Of a stretch of 32,049 nucleotides of DNA, positions 2,412 through 17,890 are shown piece after piece. The DNA comes from Nitrospinota bacterium (GTDB lineage Bacteria > Nitrospinota > Nitrospinia > Nitrospinales > JACRGP01): positions 1-32,049 of the forward strand of contig JACQQK010000045.1 in NCBI GenBank assembly GCA_016207065.1, in the 5' to 3' direction. The notes beneath the pieces were generated by a model. The model made no database searches, was not told the DNA's origin, and saw only the letters and a list, made by a program, of their open reading frames with translations. The first letter of the stretch is position 1; each line of letters starts with the position of its first letter. The position numbers and the translations under genes are program-made.

Positions 2412-3107
2412 TCACGAATACCGGTCGTTCAGCCAGGGCTCGGCTGTATTGGAATAACCGCGTTGCTCCCAGAACCCGAGTTCGTCACGGTCGCGGAACA
2501 CGATTTCGCCGATCCATTTGGCCCCTTTCCAGGCGTAGAGTTGCGGGGTGATCATCCGCACTGGTCCGCCATGGTCCTTGGGCAGGGGCTTGTCTTCCCA
2601 CATATGGACCAGCAGGACGTCGTATTTCATGGCCTCCTCCAGCGGCAGGTTCGTCGAGTAGCTGTCGTAGGCCTTGATGAACACGTACCGGGCCGACGGC
2701 AGGACCTCGCACCGCTCGGCGATGTCGCGGAACCGCACGCCTTTCCAATGGTTGTCCATCCGGCTCCAACTGGTCACGCAATGGAAATCGGAAACGTCCT
2801 CCGCCTGCGGCAGGGCCATGAACTGGTCCCACGTGAATGACGTTGGGCGTTTCACCAGGCCCGACACGGTGAGGCTCCACATCTCCAGCGGCAAATCCGG
2901 CTGGATGCCGAGGTCGAGGACGGGCCAGCGGTCCACCGCCTTTTGGCCGGGCGGGAGCTTGGGGTTGCCGTCGCGGTTCAAAGGGCCTTCCCCCATGGGG
3001 AGCCCCTCGGTCCACGCTTTCTTTTCCTGCAGGGCCTTGCGATAGCGGACCAAGGCCTCTCGATTTTTTATCTTTTTGGAGTTTGGGTCAAAGGGGATAT
3101 AGCTCAT
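2412..3107 (-). CDS. Sulfite-oxidase-like molybdopterin oxidoreductase (cytoplasmic type)
   Basis: 231 residues matching the oxidoreductase molybdopterin-binding domain (sulfite oxidase / YuiH-like group). The motif DFHCVTSWS carries C110, the expected Mo-ligating cysteine. GVRFRDIAERC and the HGGPVRMITPQLYAWKGAKW stretch are also typical of the fold. There is no Tat or Sec signal, no heme domain and no C-terminal dimerisation domain, so it is the short, stand-alone type. The substrate of this subgroup is generally unknown, and calling it a sulfite oxidase would be too strong. The start ATG at 3107 has a good GAGGAT box. It is first in a likely two-gene unit with the exported SUMF1-domain protein. 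Confidence 0.88.
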   Translation of the reverse strand: MSYIPFDPNSKKIKNREALVRYRKALQEKKAWTEGLPMGEGPLNRDGNPKLPPGQKAVDRWPVLDLGIQPDLPLEMWSLTVSGLVKRPTSFTWDQFMALPQAEDVSDFHCVTSWSRMDNHWKGVRFRDIAERCEVLPSARYVFIKAYDSYSTNLPLEEAMKYDVLLVHMWEDKPLPKDHGGPVRMITPQLYAWKGAKWIGEIVFRDRDELGFWEQRGYSNTAEPWLNDRYS

Positions 3108-3468: not shown

Positions 3469-3564
3469 CGCCCTCGGCGTCAGCCTGAGGCGGCATTGGA
3501 TCCAGCGGCACGCGGGCTGGAAAGAGGGTTAAAGTGATTTTTCCCAAAAACCGAAAAGACTAGT

Positions 3565-6500
3565 ATGGAGAGACCATTGACCCCCGCGAGTTCCATGAAA
3601 CTGAAAATCCTCACCTTCAATTGGCACGAGCCTTACCTTTGCTTGATGGCCAAACTCGGTCACCAGTTTTATGTTCTGGAACCGGAGATCGGTCCGGGCC
3701 ATATCCGCCGTTGGGACGAAAATATGCGTCCCCGGCCGGAAAACGTCCATCTGGTTTCGATGGAACACGCGGAGGAAATGTTACTGCAGAACGACGTTGA
3801 CCTCGCCATCGCCCATAATATAAAGGACCTCATTTGGATGATGGGTTACGATCTGCCCAAAATCGCGGTTTTTCATAACCGTCTGACTACCGAGATTGGG
3901 CTCTCTAAAAACACAATATCGGCTGATGAATATAAGGATAAAATTAAGGTGTTACTTGAAGGCATTCAAAAGGTGTTTATCTCCGAATCCAAGCGTAGAG
4001 ACTGGGGTCTGCCGGGAGAGGTGATTTTGCCCGGGCTCGATGTCCGGGATTTTGGGGGCTATACCGGCGAGCGGCCCGTCGTCCTCAGGGTTGGAAACCT
4101 GTTGCTGGAACGCGACCTGATGATGGGGTTTACCGCTGGCAACCAGGTGGTCAACGGTTATCCCGGCGTCATCTTGGGGTTGAACCCCGCCATCCGCGAC
4201 GCGCGTCTTTCGCGCGGATTTGGCGATTTGCTCGATCATTATCGCCACTGCCGGTTGTATCTGAACGCCACAACGGACGATTACGAGGACGGCTACAACC
4301 TGGCCATGCTCGAAGCCATGGCAGTGGGGATGCCCGTCGTCAGCTTGTACAACAAGACCTCGCCCATCCGCGACGGGATCAACGGTTTTATTTCCAAGGA
4401 TATTGCCTATCTGAAAAGATGCGTGGCCCTGCTGTTGGAGGACCCGGACCTGGCCCTGGCCCGGGATCTGGGCCGGAAGGCCCGCGAGACGGTCCAGGCG
4501 GAGTTCGGAATCCAGGCCTTTTTGATCAATTGGAACCGCGCGATCGAGAAAACCATCCGCGACTATTTGCGGAGCAGTGGGATTTCGCTGGATTCGGCGA
4601 CGCAAAAATTCCATGAGAAAAAGAAGAAAAACATCCTCATGGATTATGTTTCGTATCCGGCCACCACGGCTTTCTACATCGAGAGGGCATTGCGGAAATC
4701 GCACAATGTCGTGACCTGCGGCGCAACCATCACCCCGGAAATCGTCAAGCTCTGGAACCTGGAGGCGCTGAAATGGGAGGCGCTCCCGCAGGACATCTTC
4801 CGTCCCCGGCAGGGTTCGGTCCTCGAAACGATGAACAAACTGCCCGACCGCTGGCATCCGGACCTGTACCTTTGGGTGGAGAACGGCATCGATACAGTCC
4901 CGCCGGACCTGGACAGACTCAGTATTCCCAAGGCGTGCTATTTGATCGACACCCATATCCACCTCGAACAACACAAGGAAATCGCCCGGTATTTCGATTT
5001 CGTATTCCTGGCCCAGCGCCGGTACGTGGACGACCTGAAAGCGGCGGGGTCGCCAAGCGTCCACTGGTTGCCGCTCGCCTGCGACCCGGAGATCCACGGG
5101 ATGGTCGAGACCGGAAAGAAGCGCGACGTGACGTTCGTGGGTAGCGTCACGCCCGCGCATGTCCGCCGGAAACGTTTGCTGGAAACCATCGGGGGTCATT
5201 TCGACCTGCGGGTGGACCGGAAGTTCATGGACGAAATGGCGCTGGCGTTTTCTCAGTCCAAAATCGTATTCAACGAAGCCATCGATAACGATTTGAACAT
5301 GAGGGTCTTCGAGGCCCTGTGTTCCGGGAGTCTGCTGGTCACGGACGAGGCGCCGGGAAGCGGGTTGACGGACTTGTTCGCGGACGGCAAACATCTGGTC
5401 CTATACCGCGACGAAACGCTCGTCGAAACCATCGGCCATTATCTCCGGCATCCGGAGGAAAGGGAACGCATCGCCAGGCAGGGCAGGGAGGAAGTCCTTG
5501 AAAAACACACTTACGAAAGGCGCGCCGAATTCATGATTTCCACGCTGGAGGACCATTTTAGAAAACATGAAAACGATACGACCGGGCGCCGCCTCGGTGT
5601 CCAAGGCATCGATTCGGATGGCGAACGAGCGCCGGTTGAAGCCGGGCCAGTTGGCTCCGGCGCCTCGCCAGACGGGAAACCCGATTCCTATTACCGCAAC
5701 GTCCGCCACGACATTTTCCCTTTGATACCGCAAGAGGCGCGATGCATCCTCGAGGTCGGATGCGCCTCCGGATTGACGGGGCGCGCGTTGAAGGAAACCC
5801 GGGGAGCGTTCGTGGCCGGCATCGAGATGGACCCCGGTGCGGCGCGCGAGGCCCGGCGCAATCTGGACGACGTGCTGGAAGGCAATATCGAGACCCTGGA
5901 CCTGCCTTATCAGGAGAACAGCTTCGACTGCATTATCCTGGCGGACATCCTCGAGCACCTCGTGGACCCGCTGGCGGCGCTGAAAAAACTGCGGGGCTGT
6001 CTGAAACCCGCCGGGACCGTGGTGGCCAGCATCCCCAACGTGCAGTTTTTCGGGTTGATCAATAATTTGGCGGAGGGCAACTGGACTTACCAGAAAGAGG
6101 GGATACTGGACGAAACGCATTTGCGGTTTTTCACGTTCCGGGAAATCGAAAAACTGTTTCAGGACGCCGGTTTTGCGATAGAACAGGTCGACGAAACGCT
6201 GGACCCGCAATTCAAGAACGTGGAATATTCCGGGCAAAGCGTATTGAAGTTCGGACGGGTCACCATCAAGGATCTTTCCCGCGAGGAGATGCGGAGGTTT
6301 TTCGTTTTCCAATACAAAATAGCCGCCCGGCCGCTGACCGCTTTTTCGCGGCACGCAAAACAGAGAGCGGGCGCCAAGCTCGGATCGCCGGCCCTGTTGG
6401 AGGAGGCGCGGAAACTGGAGGACAAGGGGGACCACCAGGGCGCCATGGATTTATACAACGAGGCGCTCGGCCTGTTCCCCGGTTGCGCGGAGGCCCTGGC

Positions 6501-7050
6501 GGGAATCGGCAACTGTCATCTGCGCTTGCAAAATCCGCAAATGGCGAAGACGTTCTATCGAAAAGCCGTCTCAGTCGACGAAAATTCCATGGCCGGGTGG
6601 TTCGGTCTGGGTCTCGTTAGGGTCCAGTTCGCGGAATGCGAAGCGGCCATCGACGCTTTCTCCAAGGTCCTCGCCCGGGAACCCGGACACGACCGGGCCC
6701 TTTGCGGGGTGGGATTGGCCCTCTGGCAACGGAACGCGAAAAGCGAGGCCATGGATTATTTCGTCCGTTCCCTCAACGTCAACGTGGAAAACAAGACGGC
6801 GCTGAAATTCATGCTGGAGTTGGCTTACGAACTGGAACGGTTTCACGAGGGCGAGGAAATCCTGAAGAGATATCTCGAACTGCACCCCGCCCATTTGAGC
6901 ATGGTTTTCGGCCTGGCCGGAATCCAGTTCAAGATGGGCCGGTACGAACAGGCAAGGGAAAACCTGGAACGGATACTGGTTTTTCAACCCGACCGCGAAG
7001 ACGCGCTCCAACTGCTGGAACGCGTGATGGGCGCCTTGGCTTCCAAATAA
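3565..7050 (+). CDS. Four-domain protein: GT4-like, CgeB-like glycosyltransferase, SAM methyltransferase, TPR
   Basis: 1161 residues, apparently cytoplasmic. (1) About 11-340: GT4-like glycosyltransferase; the usual E-x7-E motif appears as D242-x7-E250 in DGYNLAMLEAMAVG. (2) About 355-665: CgeB-type glycosyltransferase, with DTHIHLEQH, the DLNMRVFEALCSG core and a terminal ERRAEFM helix. (3) About 705-920: class I SAM methyltransferase, motif I EVGCASG at 730-736 and DCIILADILEHL. (4) About 941-1150: roughly six TPR units. It is first in a tight operon (next gene 11 bp downstream). The start is uncertain: ATG 3565 and the in-frame ATG 3595 (MKLKILTFNWHE) both lack a well-placed Shine-Dalgarno, and 3595 fits the GT4 N-terminus better. 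The acceptor and sugar are unknown. A role in protein or surface glycan assembly with methyl capping is inferred. Confidence 0.88.
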   Translation: MERPLTPASSMKLKILTFNWHEPYLCLMAKLGHQFYVLEPEIGPGHIRRWDENMRPRPENVHLVSMEHAEEMLLQNDVDLAIAHNIKDLIWMMGYDLPKIAVFHNRLTTEIGLSKNTISADEYKDKIKVLLEGIQKVFISESKRRDWGLPGEVILPGLDVRDFGGYTGERPVVLRVGNLLLERDLMMGFTAGNQVVNGYPGVILGLNPAIRDARLSRGFGDLLDHYRHCRLYLNATTDDYEDGYNLAMLEAMAVGMPVVSLYNKTSPIRDGINGFISKDIAYLKRCVALLLEDPDLALARDLGRKARETVQAEFGIQAFLINWNRAIEKTIRDYLRSSGISLDSATQKFHEKKKKNILMDYVSYPATTAFYIERALRKSHNVVTCGATITPEIVKLWNLEALKWEALPQDIFRPRQGSVLETMNKLPDRWHPDLYLWVENGIDTVPPDLDRLSIPKACYLIDTHIHLEQHKEIARYFDFVFLAQRRYVDDLKAAGSPSVHWLPLACDPEIHGMVETGKKRDVTFVGSVTPAHVRRKRLLETIGGHFDLRVDRKFMDEMALAFSQSKIVFNEAIDNDLNMRVFEALCSGSLLVTDEAPGSGLTDLFADGKHLVLYRDETLVETIGHYLRHPEERERIARQGREEVLEKHTYERRAEFMISTLEDHFRKHENDTTGRRLGVQGIDSDGERAPVEAGPVGSGASPDGKPDSYYRNVRHDIFPLIPQEARCILEVGCASGLTGRALKETRGAFVAGIEMDPGAAREARRNLDDVLEGNIETLDLPYQENSFDCIILADILEHLVDPLAALKKLRGCLKPAGTVVASIPNVQFFGLINNLAEGNWTYQKEGILDETHLRFFTFREIEKLFQDAGFAIEQVDETLDPQFKNVEYSGQSVLKFGRVTIKDLSREEMRRFFVFQYKIAARPLTAFSRHAKQRAGAKLGSPALLEEARKLEDKGDHQGAMDLYNEALGLFPGCAEALAGIGNCHLRLQNPQMAKTFYRKAVSVDENSMAGWFGLGLVRVQFAECEAAIDAFSKVLAREPGHDRALCGVGLALWQRNAKSEAMDYFVRSLNVNVENKTALKFMLELAYELERFHEGEEILKRYLELHPAHLSMVFGLAGIQFKMGRYEQARENLERILVFQPDREDALQLLERVMGALASK

Positions 7051-8858: not shown

Positions 8859-10619
8859 GTGATCGAGAAGATCCTTATCCTGAATATGACGAGGATGGGC
8901 GATTTGATTCAATCGACCCCTCTGCTCGCCGGTCTGCGGAAACGCCATCCCTCGGCCAGGATCACGGTCGTGGTTTCCAGCGATTTTCTCGAATTCGCCA
9001 AAAGGATCCCGCACGTCGACGAAATCGTGGTATTCAACCTGCGCCAGTTCAACGAGCGGGAAGAGGGGACGAATTTAAGCTGGGTCGAGGTTTACCGCTA
9101 CCTGGAAAAGTTTCTGGACGACCTGGCCGCGAGCCGGTTCGATCTCCTGGTCAACTTGAGCCATTCCAAGCTCAGCGCCCTGATGATCTCCTACCTGGGG
9201 GTCAAGGAAGTCCGCGGTTTCGCCTGTCACGAGACGGGCGATCGCAAGACGGTCCATCCCTGGATGCAATATTTCGGGACGGAACCCTTCAACCGGGCGT
9301 TCAACACCTACAACCTCGTGGACATATTCGCCCGCGGGGGGGACGTCGTCCCCGACGGTCAGGGAGTCAAAATCGTTTCCGAGCCGGACGACGGGGCTTT
9401 GATAGCCGAAACGCTGGCCCGGGAAAATATTCGCGACGGCGACTTTTTGATCGGTATCCAGGCCGGTTCCAGCCTGGAGGGCCGGAGATGGCCGGCGGCG
9501 TCGTTCGCGGAACTGGCGGACCTGCTGGCCGAAAAGCTGGGCGCCCGGATCCTTCTGTTCGGGGTGGCTTCCGAGTCGGCCCTGGCGCGGGAGATCGTTG
9601 CGCACATGAGAAATAAAAACGCCGTCCTCGACCTGACGGGCAAAACGGCGATCCCGCAATTGATCGCCTGGTTGACGAAATGCCGGTACCTGGTCACGAA
9701 CGACACCGGCACCATGCACGTCGCGGCGGCGTTGGGGACGCCGATCGTCGGTCTATTCTTCGCCCATGCGCACCCGCGCGAAACGGCGCCCTACGGGGCG
9801 GGGCACGTCGTTTTTCAAGCGCGGATCCCCTGCGCGCCGTGCAGTTACGGGGTCCAATGCAACAACGTCGTATGCATCGACAAAGTCCGCCCGCGTCACG
9901 TCTATTCCATGATTTCCCGGCAGAACGAGGAGGGGATTTGGGAATTGCCGCCGGACATGGGGAACCTTGAGGGAATGAACGTCTATCAAACCAGCTTCGA
10001 CAAGGACAACCTCTTGCGGCTCAAACCCATGATCAAGCGCCCCCCGGCTCCCGAGGACCTCGTCGCCCTGGCGTACAGGAAGATGTGGCTTAAAGCGCTG
10101 GCCGGGGACGGCGGCGAAAAATCATGGAAGGATGGCGAACTGGAGGACATCGCCGATACCGTCCGCGAGGATTACGACGTCGCCTGCATGGAGCCGGCGC
10201 TCCAGGACTTGCGATCGAAATCGGAGTCGTTCCAGGTATTGCGGCGGTTGGCCGAACGCGCCGTCCCGGTGACGGACCGGATCATCGAAGCCTTCGGGTC
10301 CCGGTCGTTGAAAGCGGACCGTCTGCGACTTTGGAGCGAAACGCTAACGCAGTTGGACGACCGTATCGACGAAACGGGGCTGACGCATCCCGAGGTCAAA
10401 CCCCTGGCCGACATGTTCGCCAAACGCAAGGAGAACCTGGCGGGGGACGACGTATTGGCCCTGGCGCGGACAACGAGGAAGTATTACCGCCAAACGATCG
10501 CCGAATGCGCCCTGATGGTCGGCGCCCTGGCTTACACCGCGGATATTTTGGAGGCGCGTTCGGATTGGAATTTGAACGCGGCCCCCAGTTCCATCAAGGT
10601 GGCCGTGCCGGGCAGGTAA
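8859..10619 (+). CDS. GT9 (heptosyltransferase-family) glycosyltransferase with long C-terminal extension
   Basis: 586 residues. Residues 1-350 match glycosyltransferase family 9 (ADP-heptose:LPS heptosyltransferases): N-terminal KILILNMTRMGDLIQSTPLL, the GRRWPAASFAELADLL acceptor-side motif near 208, NDTGTMHVAAALGTPIVGLF near 280, and a cysteine cluster CAPC-x5-C-x4-C after it. Residues 355-586 form an extra, mostly helical region that ordinary GT9 enzymes (about 350 residues) lack; I do not recognise it. The start is GTG 8859, with a GGAAGGGG box inside the end of the previous gene. Its last 88 bp overlap the convergent phosphoglycerate kinase gene. The likely role is sugar transfer to LPS core or a related surface glycan, or, given the neighbours, to a protein-linked glycan. 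Confidence 0.88.
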   Translation: MIEKILILNMTRMGDLIQSTPLLAGLRKRHPSARITVVVSSDFLEFAKRIPHVDEIVVFNLRQFNEREEGTNLSWVEVYRYLEKFLDDLAASRFDLLVNLSHSKLSALMISYLGVKEVRGFACHETGDRKTVHPWMQYFGTEPFNRAFNTYNLVDIFARGGDVVPDGQGVKIVSEPDDGALIAETLARENIRDGDFLIGIQAGSSLEGRRWPAASFAELADLLAEKLGARILLFGVASESALAREIVAHMRNKNAVLDLTGKTAIPQLIAWLTKCRYLVTNDTGTMHVAAALGTPIVGLFFAHAHPRETAPYGAGHVVFQARIPCAPCSYGVQCNNVVCIDKVRPRHVYSMISRQNEEGIWELPPDMGNLEGMNVYQTSFDKDNLLRLKPMIKRPPAPEDLVALAYRKMWLKALAGDGGEKSWKDGELEDIADTVREDYDVACMEPALQDLRSKSESFQVLRRLAERAVPVTDRIIEAFGSRSLKADRLRLWSETLTQLDDRIDETGLTHPEVKPLADMFAKRKENLAGDDVLALARTTRKYYRQTIAECALMVGALAYTADILEARSDWNLNAAPSSIKVAVPGR

Positions 10620-12121
10620 ACGGCCAGCGCGGACCGGCCGCGGTCCTTTAAAAACCCCTCCATGAATTCCAAGGCCGCCCCGCCGCCCGTCGAAACGAAA
10701 AAGTTGGAAGCTAGATAATTGAAAAGGTCGTAAGTGTCGTTGGCCGAAAAGCCGATGGACATCAGTTCCCGGTTGACCGCGGGCGACAATTGTTTTTGAA
10801 TCTGGGCGCGGGCCAGCTCCTTCAATTCGCCCAGGCTGAATTTATTGAGGATGGCCGCCGAATCCCCCCCGCCGATGACCACGGAAATATTCTCGTCGCC
10901 CAACGACGCGGCGAACAAGAGTTTCGCCAGTTCCAGGGACCCCTCCGCGTAAGACCCGCAGGCGGGGTGGTCGTAGGCGCCCAGCGGCCCGTTCCAAAAA
11001 ACATTTTCCACTCCATCCAGGATGTTCTTGGAGAAGTTGGCGATGGTCTTGGGGCCCAGGTCCAGTTGCAGTTCGCGGTCGAAATCGGGAGCGCCCTTGA
11101 TTGCATAATCGGAGCTTTTGTATTCGCCCGCCACCTTGTAGTCCTCGGGTAAAACCAGGGTCACCTTTTTCTCGACCGCCAGCGCCGCGATGTCGCCCGC
11201 CATTTTGATCTCCGCAAGCAGGGCGGCGTTTTTTTCGTCGCTTTTTTCAAGCAGTTTGGCGGGGATGTCCGCGGCCGTCAGGGAATTCAGCCGGTCCCGG
11301 AACTTATTCGCAAGGAGGAAAGCGTTGACCATTTTCCCGCCGATGAAGATCAACTTGATCTCCGATTCGACGAACTGTTTCAAGATGCCGATTTTGTCGG
11401 CGATCTTGGCCCCGCCCGCGACGATCGCCGTTTTTTTTGGGTTGGCCAGTATCCTTTTCCCGAACAGGCCCAGGTAGCGGATTTCCTCGTTCAACAACAC
11501 TCCGGCGACCGCGATTTTGCCTTCCTGGCGCATGATCTGCGGAAGCATTTTGATGCTCTTGGTCAACCGGTGACTGCAACCGAAAGCGCAGTTGACGAAT
11601 ACGTCGGCGATACGGGCGAGTTCCTCGATGAATTCCTTGCGGTAGGAGTCCGGGTTCTCGGGATCCAGAAGGTATCGCAGGTTGGGAAGAAACTTGATCC
11701 CCCCCACGGGCATCCGGTGGTTGGAGCATATCTCCAGCGAATGTTTCAGGTGGGAGTCGATGATCTCGGGAGGGAAGATCGTATAGGTATCGCCGTAGGT
11801 CTTGCGGATGAGCGTGTCGAAATGGGAGCAGACGTACTGTATGTTGAAAATGCCGTCCCAGCGCGAGCGGTCTTTTTCCTTGTGCGGCCGGCCCAGGTGA
11901 GAACCGATGATCATCCGGCAATTGCCGCCCGTCAGATCGTGGATCTTCTTGAATGTGAGGTCCAGGAAACGGCGGATCCGGGTGTCGTCGGCGACGCGAT
12001 AGTAGTTGTTGCTCGTGGCTTCCACCGGCACGTTGAAGTCGCACCGGATGAAAATGGTTTTCCCAATCAAATCGTTGGAACTGAGGGAGGCGAGCGAAAG
12101 GAGCCCGGTTTCGTCTATCAT
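10532..12121 (-). CDS. pgk: Divergent, enlarged phosphoglycerate kinase
   Basis: 529 residues against roughly 400 for usual PGK. The substrate-binding basic residues are kept: R26 (RCDFNVP), R48 (DDTRIR), H75/R78 (SHLGRP), R149 (NLRY), R185 (SHR), K239 and K243 (GGAKIADK). So are the FWNGPLGAYD, GGGDSAA (417-423) and VSTGGGAALE (476-485) motifs. Oddities: the usual VNDAFG reads VNCAFG (C178); about 52 residues (424-475) sit between GGGD and VSTGGG where typical enzymes have far fewer; and the tail runs about 40 residues past the usual end. It would convert 1,3-bisphosphoglycerate and ADP to 3-phosphoglycerate and ATP, but a paralogue with a changed role is possible. No glycolytic neighbour is present. 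The start ATG 12121 has a good AAGGA box. It follows the TMTC-like gene by 92 bp. Confidence 0.85.
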   Translation of the reverse strand: MIDETGLLSLASLSSNDLIGKTIFIRCDFNVPVEATSNNYYRVADDTRIRRFLDLTFKKIHDLTGGNCRMIIGSHLGRPHKEKDRSRWDGIFNIQYVCSHFDTLIRKTYGDTYTIFPPEIIDSHLKHSLEICSNHRMPVGGIKFLPNLRYLLDPENPDSYRKEFIEELARIADVFVNCAFGCSHRLTKSIKMLPQIMRQEGKIAVAGVLLNEEIRYLGLFGKRILANPKKTAIVAGGAKIADKIGILKQFVESEIKLIFIGGKMVNAFLLANKFRDRLNSLTAADIPAKLLEKSDEKNAALLAEIKMAGDIAALAVEKKVTLVLPEDYKVAGEYKSSDYAIKGAPDFDRELQLDLGPKTIANFSKNILDGVENVFWNGPLGAYDHPACGSYAEGSLELAKLLFAASLGDENISVVIGGGDSAAILNKFSLGELKELARAQIQKQLSPAVNRELMSIGFSANDTYDLFNYLASNFFVSTGGGAALEFMEGFLKDRGRSALAVYLPGTATLMELGAAFKFQSERASKISAV

Positions 12122-16448: not shown

Positions 16449-17180
16449 CGCCGATTTCGCGCAACGAAAACCCGTGTCCAGAGCGCGGATCGTGGGAGGA
16501 GCGAAGTTCCGGTAGAACAGCATGGCGAACTCCTTCATGAATCCGTGCTCGCTCCTTTGAATGGTCCCGCCGCGGATCACTTTTAACTTATCGCCGAAAT
16601 TCGGGTCCTCGAAGGCGGCGTTCGGATAGGCCAGGTAGGAACTGGCCGTCCATTCAGCGACATTCCCGTTTAGATCGTAAACCGCGTAAGGGCTTTTGTC
16701 ATTTTCGAAACCGCCGACGCGTTGGACGCTTTTGCCCAGATTGGCGTTTTCCCGGACAAACTCGTTTCCCCACGTGAAAATCCTTCCGTCCGTCCCGCGC
16801 GCCGACTTTTCCCACTCAAATTCCGTGGGAAGGCGTTTGTTCATCCACAGACAATAGGCGTCGGCCTCGTACCAGGAGACCCCTCGCACCGGTTCGCCCG
16901 GCATACCTCTCTCGTATTTCGCTTGCGGCTTGAAACGGAGAAATTGATCGTACGTCACTTCGTAACGGTCGATATAAAACGGCTCGACTTTGTATTTCTG
17001 CTGGGGTTGGGCGTTTCTGCCGGTGGTGCGTTCCGACAGGAACTGCGGCTCCGTTTCCCCCGCATGGGCTCCCAGCAGGAATTCCCCGCCCGGTATGAAG
17101 ACCATATCGGACGGCTCTTCCCGGCAGGCGGCCCCCAAAACGAGCGGGACGATTAATAAGAAGACAGCCAGCCGGTTCAA
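16446..17180 (-). CDS. Exported SUMF1/FGE-sulfatase-domain protein (second copy)
   Basis: 244 residues from TTG at 17180. That codon overlaps the stop of the preceding gene (TTGA), and the frame places the hydrophobic segment LAVFLLIVPLVLGAAC at the very N-terminus; a longer upstream reading gives an arginine-rich, unlikely leader. C19 could be lipidated, but the lipobox (LGAAC) is poor, so a lipoprotein or an ordinary Sec substrate are both possible. The SUMF1 domain follows: MVFIPGGEFLLG, EPFYIDRYEVTYDQFLRF, RLPTEFEWEKSARG, GNVAEWTASS, IRGGT and the closing TGFRC. As in the copy at 1610-2356, the FGE active-site Cys pair after GGT is missing, so formylglycine synthesis is unlikely. It is translationally coupled to the HmuY-like gene. 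Confidence 0.83.
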   Translation of the reverse strand: MNRLAVFLLIVPLVLGAACREEPSDMVFIPGGEFLLGAHAGETEPQFLSERTTGRNAQPQQKYKVEPFYIDRYEVTYDQFLRFKPQAKYERGMPGEPVRGVSWYEADAYCLWMNKRLPTEFEWEKSARGTDGRIFTWGNEFVRENANLGKSVQRVGGFENDKSPYAVYDLNGNVAEWTASSYLAYPNAAFEDPNFGDKLKVIRGGTIQRSEHGFMKEFAMLFYRNFAPPTIRALDTGFRCAKSA

Positions 17181-17890
17181 TCGAGATCCGGTTTCGCCGC
17201 GACGGTCTCGCGCGCTACGGGGACTGGAAAAACCCGTTCTCCGTTGGGCTGACGGACGTATTCTATCGTTATGCAGGCGGCCTCGTCGCGCGGACACAGC
17301 GCGGTAGCGCAGTCCGATTCGTTTTGATTGCAATAATAGTTGAGGATACGGAATTTCACGTAGCTCTGGTCGGACATCCGCGCGACGTAAACGTTTTTCT
17401 GGGATTCGATGTTGTGCGTGCGGGTGCGGTAGAGATACCAGTTCGAAAGGGACGGATTGCTCAGTTTTCCCCAGGCGTTCGTGTCCGCAAGATATCCGGT
17501 TTCAGGCGCCTCCTTGACCTCGTCGAAATCGACTTTCCCCAGGTTGACGACGCCGACGGTCCCCTGAGAATTGGTTTCCCCGCCGTTGGCGATGATTTTG
17601 GTCCGCTGAAACCCCAGGTCCCATTGGATCTCGTTCAACCGGGCCTTCTCTTTTTCCGGATCTTGAATCGAATAGGTTTTGCCGGTGGCAAAATCCAGGA
17701 GCGTCCAGACGTCCCTCGACGTGGCATTCACCCGGACCGTTGGATTGCCGACGGCGGCGGTTTCGGTCCGTTTTGGCGGCAAGGCCACGGTTTCGAAATC
17801 GACGATATTGTCCGTCATGTAGTTCAACGCGGCGTGAAACAGAAACGTGGCCACGACCAGCATGCCGAAGATGTTTAACGTGTTGTTCAT
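17177..17890 (-). CDS. HmuY-like exported protein
   Basis: 237 residues. An N-terminal hydrophobic segment (about 5-23) acts as signal or anchor. The core has the HmuY pattern: VWTLLDFATGKTYSI, then WDLGFQRTKIIANGGETNSQG, VVNLG and later YVKFRILNYY. HmuY proteins of Bacteroidetes bind heme at the surface, but the family is wide and most members are uncharacterised, so heme binding is not claimed. A C-terminal stretch carries four Cys within about 20 residues (YYCNQ, SDCAT, ALCPR, AACIT), which could form disulfides or hold a ligand. It is first in a two-gene unit with the SUMF1-domain protein, overlapping it by 4 bp, which suggests that the two products work together outside the cytoplasm. 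The start ATG 17890 lies within the palindrome ATGACGTCAT. Confidence 0.68.
   Translation of the reverse strand: MNNTLNIFGMLVVATFLFHAALNYMTDNIVDFETVALPPKRTETAAVGNPTVRVNATSRDVWTLLDFATGKTYSIQDPEKEKARLNEIQWDLGFQRTKIIANGGETNSQGTVGVVNLGKVDFDEVKEAPETGYLADTNAWGKLSNPSLSNWYLYRTRTHNIESQKNVYVARMSDQSYVKFRILNYYCNQNESDCATALCPRDEAACITIEYVRQPNGERVFPVPVARETVAAKPDLD

Follow-up and report, generated by a model that had tools for sequence, protein, structure and literature searches.

A multidomain glycosyltransferase–methyltransferase operon of Nitrospinota with a predicted role in flagellin glycosylation

A four-module chain at the head of a three-gene operon

The window analysed here, the whole 32,049-nucleotide stretch of contig JACQQK010000045.1 from a Nitrospinota bacterium, holds on its forward strand an open reading frame of 1161 amino acids, hereafter P0001 (3565–7050). 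P0001 is the first gene of a conserved three-gene operon with P5 and P6, which we interpret as a probable flagellin glycosylation module. Starting from the N terminus, module 1 is a GT-B, GT4-like glycosyltransferase carrying D242 and E250 (residues 11–337, 3595–4575), and module 2 is a CgeB-like glycosyltransferase made of DUF3880 and Glyco_trans_1_2 with the motif DLNMRVFE (residues 352–672, 4618–5580). A linker that is variable in the orthologue alignment (residues 671–707, 5575–5685) leads to module 3, a class I S-adenosylmethionine-type methyltransferase (residues 708–928, 5686–6348), and module 4 consists of six tetratricopeptide repeats (TPRs) with a cap helix (residues 941–1160, 6385–7044), all on the + strand.

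Three lines of evidence define these modules. In Pfam, residues 221–308 match Glyco_trans_1_4/Glycos_transf_1, 459–528 match DUF3880 (28.8 bits, cut-off 25.2), 555–658 match Glyco_trans_1_2 (118.8 bits, cut-off 25), 713–874 match Methyltransf_23, and many TPR models fall inside 944–1154. The AlphaFold model, built from an alignment of 32 sequences (mean pLDDT 81.1, pTM 0.52), contains a GT-B unit at 10–337, a second GT-B-like unit at 352–672 whose C-terminal half is of low confidence, a disordered linker at 671–707, the methyltransferase at 708–928 and 13 helices at 941–1160, that is, the six TPRs and the cap helix. Structure comparison with the PDB pairs residues 10–333 with BshA and its two-Rossmann GT-B fold (Z 26.5), residues 712–928 with the methyltransferase 3cc8 (Z 26.1) and residues 939–1161 with the TPRs of O-GlcNAc transferase (Z 21.6). 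The initial annotation had read a single chain with two glycosyltransferases, a methyltransferase and about six TPRs from the letters alone; the Pfam, AlphaFold and PDB matches agree on that order, the structure prediction that it proposed recovers all four modules, with low confidence in the second half of the second glycosyltransferase, and the motifs lie where it placed them (D242/E250, DLNMRVFEALCSG from residue 576 and EVGCASG from residue 730).

Its suggestion that an aspartate at the first GT4 glutamate may weaken module 1 is not supported. The EX7E position reads D242-X7-E250 in all 32 aligned sequences, so D242 is not a sign of decay, and the Asp form is putatively active. E241, D242, E250 and E754 are each invariant (32/32), as are D576, R580 and E583 in all 30 aligned sequences that have the second glycosyltransferase. 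The glycine-rich motif I of the methyltransferase (E730-G732-G736) is mostly kept, with one of the 32 departing from it (genome G007). In that genome (locus L087) the methyltransferase domain persists with degenerate motifs, in the residues aligned to P0001 730–852. The frame is annotatable from 3565. Translation probably starts at M11 (3595), on two grounds: this is the position at which many orthologues begin, and a promoter-like site ends at 3557, which would place the transcript start at about the ATG at 3565.

P5 (7062–8855, + strand, 597 amino acids) combines a Maf N-terminal domain, approximately residues 1–165, with a CgeB-like glycosyltransferase, as seen with Pfam and hhalign. P6 (8859–10619, + strand) is a GT9, heptosyltransferase-like protein with about 240 extra C-terminal residues, assigned by Pfam and a profile match. 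Among 25 compared loci holding P0001, P5 comes next in all 25 and P6 in 23, the remaining two (L084 and L085) ending there. P5 was found in 37 of the 39 genomes with the module, and the contigs of the two that miss it, G039 and G040, end at P0001. The P5 N terminus meets the Maf domain PF20157 (26.2 bits, cut-off 23.5), and its first 165 residues align by hhalign with the N termini of Maf from Nitrospinales (99%) and from the outer family f9 (97%). The MptE-like catalytic domain PF01973 gave no Pfam match in P5 and is present in the Maf of the f9 operon; in a whole-protein fold comparison of P5, the 50 matches listed are all GT-B enzymes, with no Maf among them. The f9 operon consists of a P0001-like gene, a complete Maf (641–643 amino acids), a separate CgeB-like glycosyltransferase and then, where the contig reaches (G072), a GT9 gene. 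Since f9 keeps Maf and the CgeB-like glycosyltransferase as separate genes, P5 seems to have arisen by joining a Maf head to the gene that follows it.

Conservation and modularity across Nitrospinota

With a strong match defined as E below 1e-100, P0001 is matched in 39 of 61 genomes searched, that is, in 38 besides its own. By hand count, 30 of these 38 have a single uninterrupted frame of 1123 amino acids or more; the homologue is cut by contig ends in four (G039, G040, G052 and G054), has a frame change near residue 114 in one (G020) and lacks the second glycosyltransferase in three (G037, G048 and G055). A phylum-wide search at E 1e-60 gave matches in 43 of 77 genomes. A contig scan with P0001 alone, which reaches close relatives only, returned 15 loci, 15/15 from Nitrospinae, Nitrospina, Nitrospinaceae or Nitrospinota, and all matches from searches of plasmids were partial. 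The genome to which the window belongs, as contig 165, has 190 contigs and is 80% complete, a state in which a chimeric assembly or a gene-prediction artefact has to be considered. Such an origin of P0001 is ruled out for practical purposes: the identical fusion stands in the 30 other genomes and in named independent assemblies, spanning several genera and families. The refuting condition named by the initial annotation, homologues always encoded as separate genes together with assembly breaks at the junctions, does not apply to this protein, as the fusion recurs.

The modules are, judging from the homologues, not obligatory. In three genomes of genus g9 (G037, G055 and G064; Pfam was run on the G037 protein), module 1 is joined straight to the methyltransferase and TPRs without the second glycosyltransferase; in another g9 genome, G048, a contig end truncates the homologue. 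In family f9, the methyltransferase is missing: the 960-amino-acid homologue of G071 consists, by Pfam, of both glycosyltransferases followed by TPRs, the G072 homologue (start cut) aligns like it, and that of G076 is cut before the methyltransferase region. For f9, losing the methyltransferase and its gain in other lineages are about equally likely, because a Planctomyces plasmid protein has the same glycosyltransferase–methyltransferase order. The TPR end is altered in G042.

A promoter-like site resembling that of flagellin genes

A putative sigma-28-like promoter, TAAAGTGA-N12-ACCGAAAA, lies at 3530–3557 on the + strand, 37 bp 5′ of the M11 start. It was located with a motif seeded with the sigma-28 consensus and then fitted on 44 flagellin upstream regions only. 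The flagellin upstreams give the motif TAAAGTTA-N11-TCCGATAA, which we take to be sigma-28-like. It scores above the 95% level of shuffled sequences in 20 of 36 P0001 upstreams, compared with 8 of the 211 upstream regions taken from 13 other gene clusters (Mann–Whitney p ~1e-16, the orthologues not being independent of one another). In most P0001 orthologues a similar site sits 37–41 bp upstream of the start, and 24 sites picked by hand have T..AAG and CCG fixed with a variable spacer. The reference promoter form is TAAA-N14-16-GCCGATAA-like, from which the P0001 site differs slightly in the −10 element and in spacing. In each of the three genomes inspected that carry the module or flagellins (G003, G006 and G013), a FliA-type sigma factor follows flhA-flhF-flhG.

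Co-occurrence with flagellins, Maf and nonulosonic acid genes

Co-occurrence was counted in the 28 genomes with a completeness of 90% or more, given here as both/module only/gene only/neither. The module tracks CMP-sugar synthetase (19/1/0/8, hence 19/20 genomes with the module and 0/8 without it) and MptE-like/Maf proteins (19/1/0/8), and it is found together with flagellins, counted as two or more PF00669 matches (20/0/4/4; 20/20 versus 4/8), and with FlhA (20/0/5/3). NeuB (18/2/3/5) is a weaker marker than Maf or CMP-sugar synthetase, because the g8 genomes G013, G015 and G017 carry it too. The O-antigen ligase domain Wzy_C, included as a control for a lipopolysaccharide (LPS) role, does not track the module in these 28 genomes (18/2/5/3, p 0.12). 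In all 61 genomes, the counts for flagellins are 39/0/10/12. Four of the ten flagellin-only genomes (G001, G045, G059 and G060) are uninformative, as is G053, because the PGK-like gene that flanks the module site was also not found there (E 1e-40); the remainder belong to genera g8 or g11.

Sugar genes adjoin the flagellins themselves: most of the module genomes inspected have a CMP-sugar synthetase and a Gfo/Idh/MocA oxidoreductase gene at the flagellin cluster. In most of the loci L097–L103, the stretch between the cytidylyltransferase and the Gfo/Idh gene contains four to seven genes of flagellin type, the majority arranged in tandem. At L134–L139 and L143, NeuB shares a conserved operon, broken in G012, with a Wzx-like flippase and a relative of the P0001 methyltransferase. 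A further locus (L142, G000 C45:32001–48000) groups genes for GNAT, GT28-C, CBS plus epimerase, NeuB, Gfo/Idh and cytidylyltransferase proteins, a set that presumably resembles a legionaminic-acid-like pathway.

Joint losses at the module site and flagellin linkage in one outer genome

On the left, the site is flanked by an MsrP-like molybdopterin oxidoreductase gene (cluster c5, 2412–3107, − strand) and on the right by the gene of the PGK-like protein (cluster c6, 10532–12121, − strand), both assigned by Pfam and locus comparison. The PGK-like protein, which always adjoins the module site, has 529 amino acids against the 379 positions of its Pfam model. In G031, a single contig keeps c5 and c6, and between them a relic of the P0001 start adjoins the end of P6. 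The same genome has one weak PF00669 match and an intact FlhA, with no flhF, flhG or fliA beside it. In G028 and four g8 genomes c5 adjoins c6, and in G008 c10 adjoins c6, the module being absent from all of them; G008 and G028 thus have an assembled site without the module, and both are without flagellin. In G005 and G012 the contigs break off at the module site, and G012 has CMP-sugar synthetase and NeuB only as broken remnants. Read from these loci, the module has been lost jointly with flagellins, once leaving a deletion scar (G031). In G005 (98% complete; L133, C5:285000–300000), FlhA lies in two frames with an internal stop, which points to a recent loss of flagella.

In the f9 genome G076, one strand of contig C53 encodes a Gfo/Idh/MocA protein, a cytidylyltransferase, flagellin, FlaG, FliD, FliS and the P0001 homologue. 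In G071, no fliS is visible within the 627 bases present upstream of the homologue, and the contig of the third f9 genome with the gene, G072, does not display this arrangement either, so G076 alone provides the flagellar linkage. Elsewhere in the window, an HmuY-like protein is encoded at 17177–17890 on the − strand (Pfam HmuY, 60.9 bits).

Proposed function

Because of the sigma-28-like promoter, the co-occurrence with Maf and CMP-sugar synthetase, the joint losses and the f9 linkage, the link of the module to flagellin is well supported, and we put the probability that P0001, P5 and P6 together form a flagellin glycosylation module at roughly 0.78. Through a sigma-28-type promoter, transcription of the operon would be coupled to that of the late flagellar genes. 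The TPR superhelix of P0001 may hold unexported flagellin, in several paralogues, in the cytoplasm, as the TPR domain of FlmG does; TPRs as the acceptor-binding part, already suggested by the initial annotation, fit both the flagellin link and the FlmG precedent. The two GT-B domains would add or extend an O-glycan, with donor sugars and reaction order as yet conjectural, the methyltransferase would methylate a sugar rather than the protein, and P5 and P6 would add further sugars. The Maf-derived N-terminal domain of P5 is a possible second flagellin-recognition part. The likely linking sugar is a nonulosonic acid from the NeuB pathway; the CMP-sugar synthetase encoded at the flagellin locus would activate it, and separate Maf proteins would transfer this first sugar. 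We propose this division, with linkage by Maf and extension and methylation by P0001-P5-P6, because of the FlmG and Aeromonas precedents and the methyltransferase paralogue and flippase in the NeuB operon. The order in the initial annotation, two sugars and then a methyl cap, is a guess. More tentatively, and with the odds somewhat against so complete a picture, P0001 could be a one-chain assembly line, in which flagellin docked on the TPRs has its glycan built, extended and methylated without release, the Maf remnant of P5 docks too, and lineages tune their flagellar glycan by loss or gain of whole modules (the second glycosyltransferase in g9, the methyltransferase in f9).

Several observations weigh against this reading. 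The P0001 −10 element is CCGAAAA with N12, whereas that of the flagellins is CCGATAA with N11, and 16 of 36 P0001 upstreams fall below the promoter cut. The module is not beside flagellins in Nitrospinales, and the linkage is seen on one contig of three f9 genomes. The Fisher p-values for co-occurrence ignore shared ancestry. Flagellins occur without the module in genera g8 and g11, so flagella as such do not require it. In G042 (97% complete), the module is present without Maf, CMP-sugar synthetase or a strong NeuB, which suggests that it can act without nonulosonic acid or is decaying there. Finally, the Ser/Thr content of flagellins, compared as a possible mark of glycosylation, hardly differs between module genomes (0.248, n=39) and g8 (0.209, n=5), in an alignment of 45 flagellins whose one other member is from G042.

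The nearest alternatives concern what the enzymes act on. The methyltransferase might modify lysines or termini of flagellin, so that one chain would both glycosylate and methylate the protein; in favour of this, the domain shares its chain with TPRs presumed to hold flagellin, and methylation of flagellin protein is known and is mentioned in PMC7591256. We consider this unlikely, given that paralogues of the P0001 methyltransferase lie in a sugar context, next to NeuB and a Wzx-like flippase, and that the glycosyltransferase–methyltransferase fusion of the Planctomyces plasmid has no flagellar gene annotated nearby. Slightly less probable still is that the operon glycosylates, or plays some other part for, a flagellar or surface protein other than flagellin, such as a hook-associated protein or pili. 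Co-loss and promoter point to a late flagellar role rather than strictly to flagellin, and G031 lacks the module with FlhA intact; yet that genome has lost its flagellins and, at that locus, flhF-flhG-fliA, and the module tracks flagellins, Maf and a CMP-sugar synthetase that adjoins flagellin genes. A role in LPS core or O-antigen synthesis would suit P6, a heptosyltransferase-like GT9 protein that matches the heptosyltransferase II model below its cut-off, and CgeB-like and GT4 domains are common in LPS loci, with glycosyltransferase–methyltransferase fusions existing outside flagellar loci, as on the Planctomyces plasmid. This role is the most doubtful of the three, disfavoured by the distribution of Wzy_C, which occurs in 33 of 39 genomes with the module and 16 of 22 without (p 0.32) and is kept without the module by, among others, G031, G005 and g8; nor would it explain the sigma-28-like site, the presence of a Maf domain or the linkage in f9.

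If the operon is indeed a flagellin glycosylation module, Nitrospinota, which include marine nitrite oxidisers, are predicted to have glycosylated and probably methylated flagella; one literature search found no paper on flagellin glycosylation in this phylum. The natural module-deletion series could show which domain adds which part of the flagellar glycan.

Comparison with known systems

A close functional parallel is FlmG of Caulobacter crescentus, whose TPR domain, according to PMC7591256, binds and holds flagellins for its GT-B domain in the cytoplasm. FlmG and P0001 both have TPRs and GT-B in one chain and nonulosonic acid genes in the genome, and P0001 would likewise act in the cytoplasm and serve several flagellins. 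The two are set apart by description, FlmG having 596 amino acids with TPRs first and one glycosyltransferase, whereas P0001 has its TPRs last, two glycosyltransferases and a methyltransferase; P0001 would thus represent a second TPR–glycosyltransferase architecture besides the FlmG type. Caulobacter is reported to have no Maf, unlike the genomes studied here. The Maf flagellin glycosyltransferases (PMC4065374 and others) share their N-terminal domain with P5 and occur in full inside the f9 operon, whereas P5 is without the MptE-like catalytic domain and P0001 without any Maf part. In Aeromonas, as described in PMC7874193, the nonulosonic acid that serves as linking sugar on flagellin is added by Maf and extended by a further glycosyltransferase, Fgi-1, and methylated sugars occur; Fgi-1 differs from P0001 in being a single-domain GT-2/GT-A enzyme of 327 amino acids.

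Similar in domain order is WP_082859083.1, from a plasmid of Planctomyces sp. SH-PL62, with a CgeB-like glycosyltransferase followed by a methyltransferase (38% identity over P0001 433–923) and TPRs last. It differs in having no GT4 module in front and a GT2-family domain between methyltransferase and TPRs, and no flagellar gene is annotated within about 12 kb of it. CgeB-like glycosyltransferases with DUF3880 and Glyco_trans_1_2 resemble module 2 and the C-terminal part of P5, CgeB itself being stand-alone. The domain make-up of P0001 is new, within a family that has known precedents.

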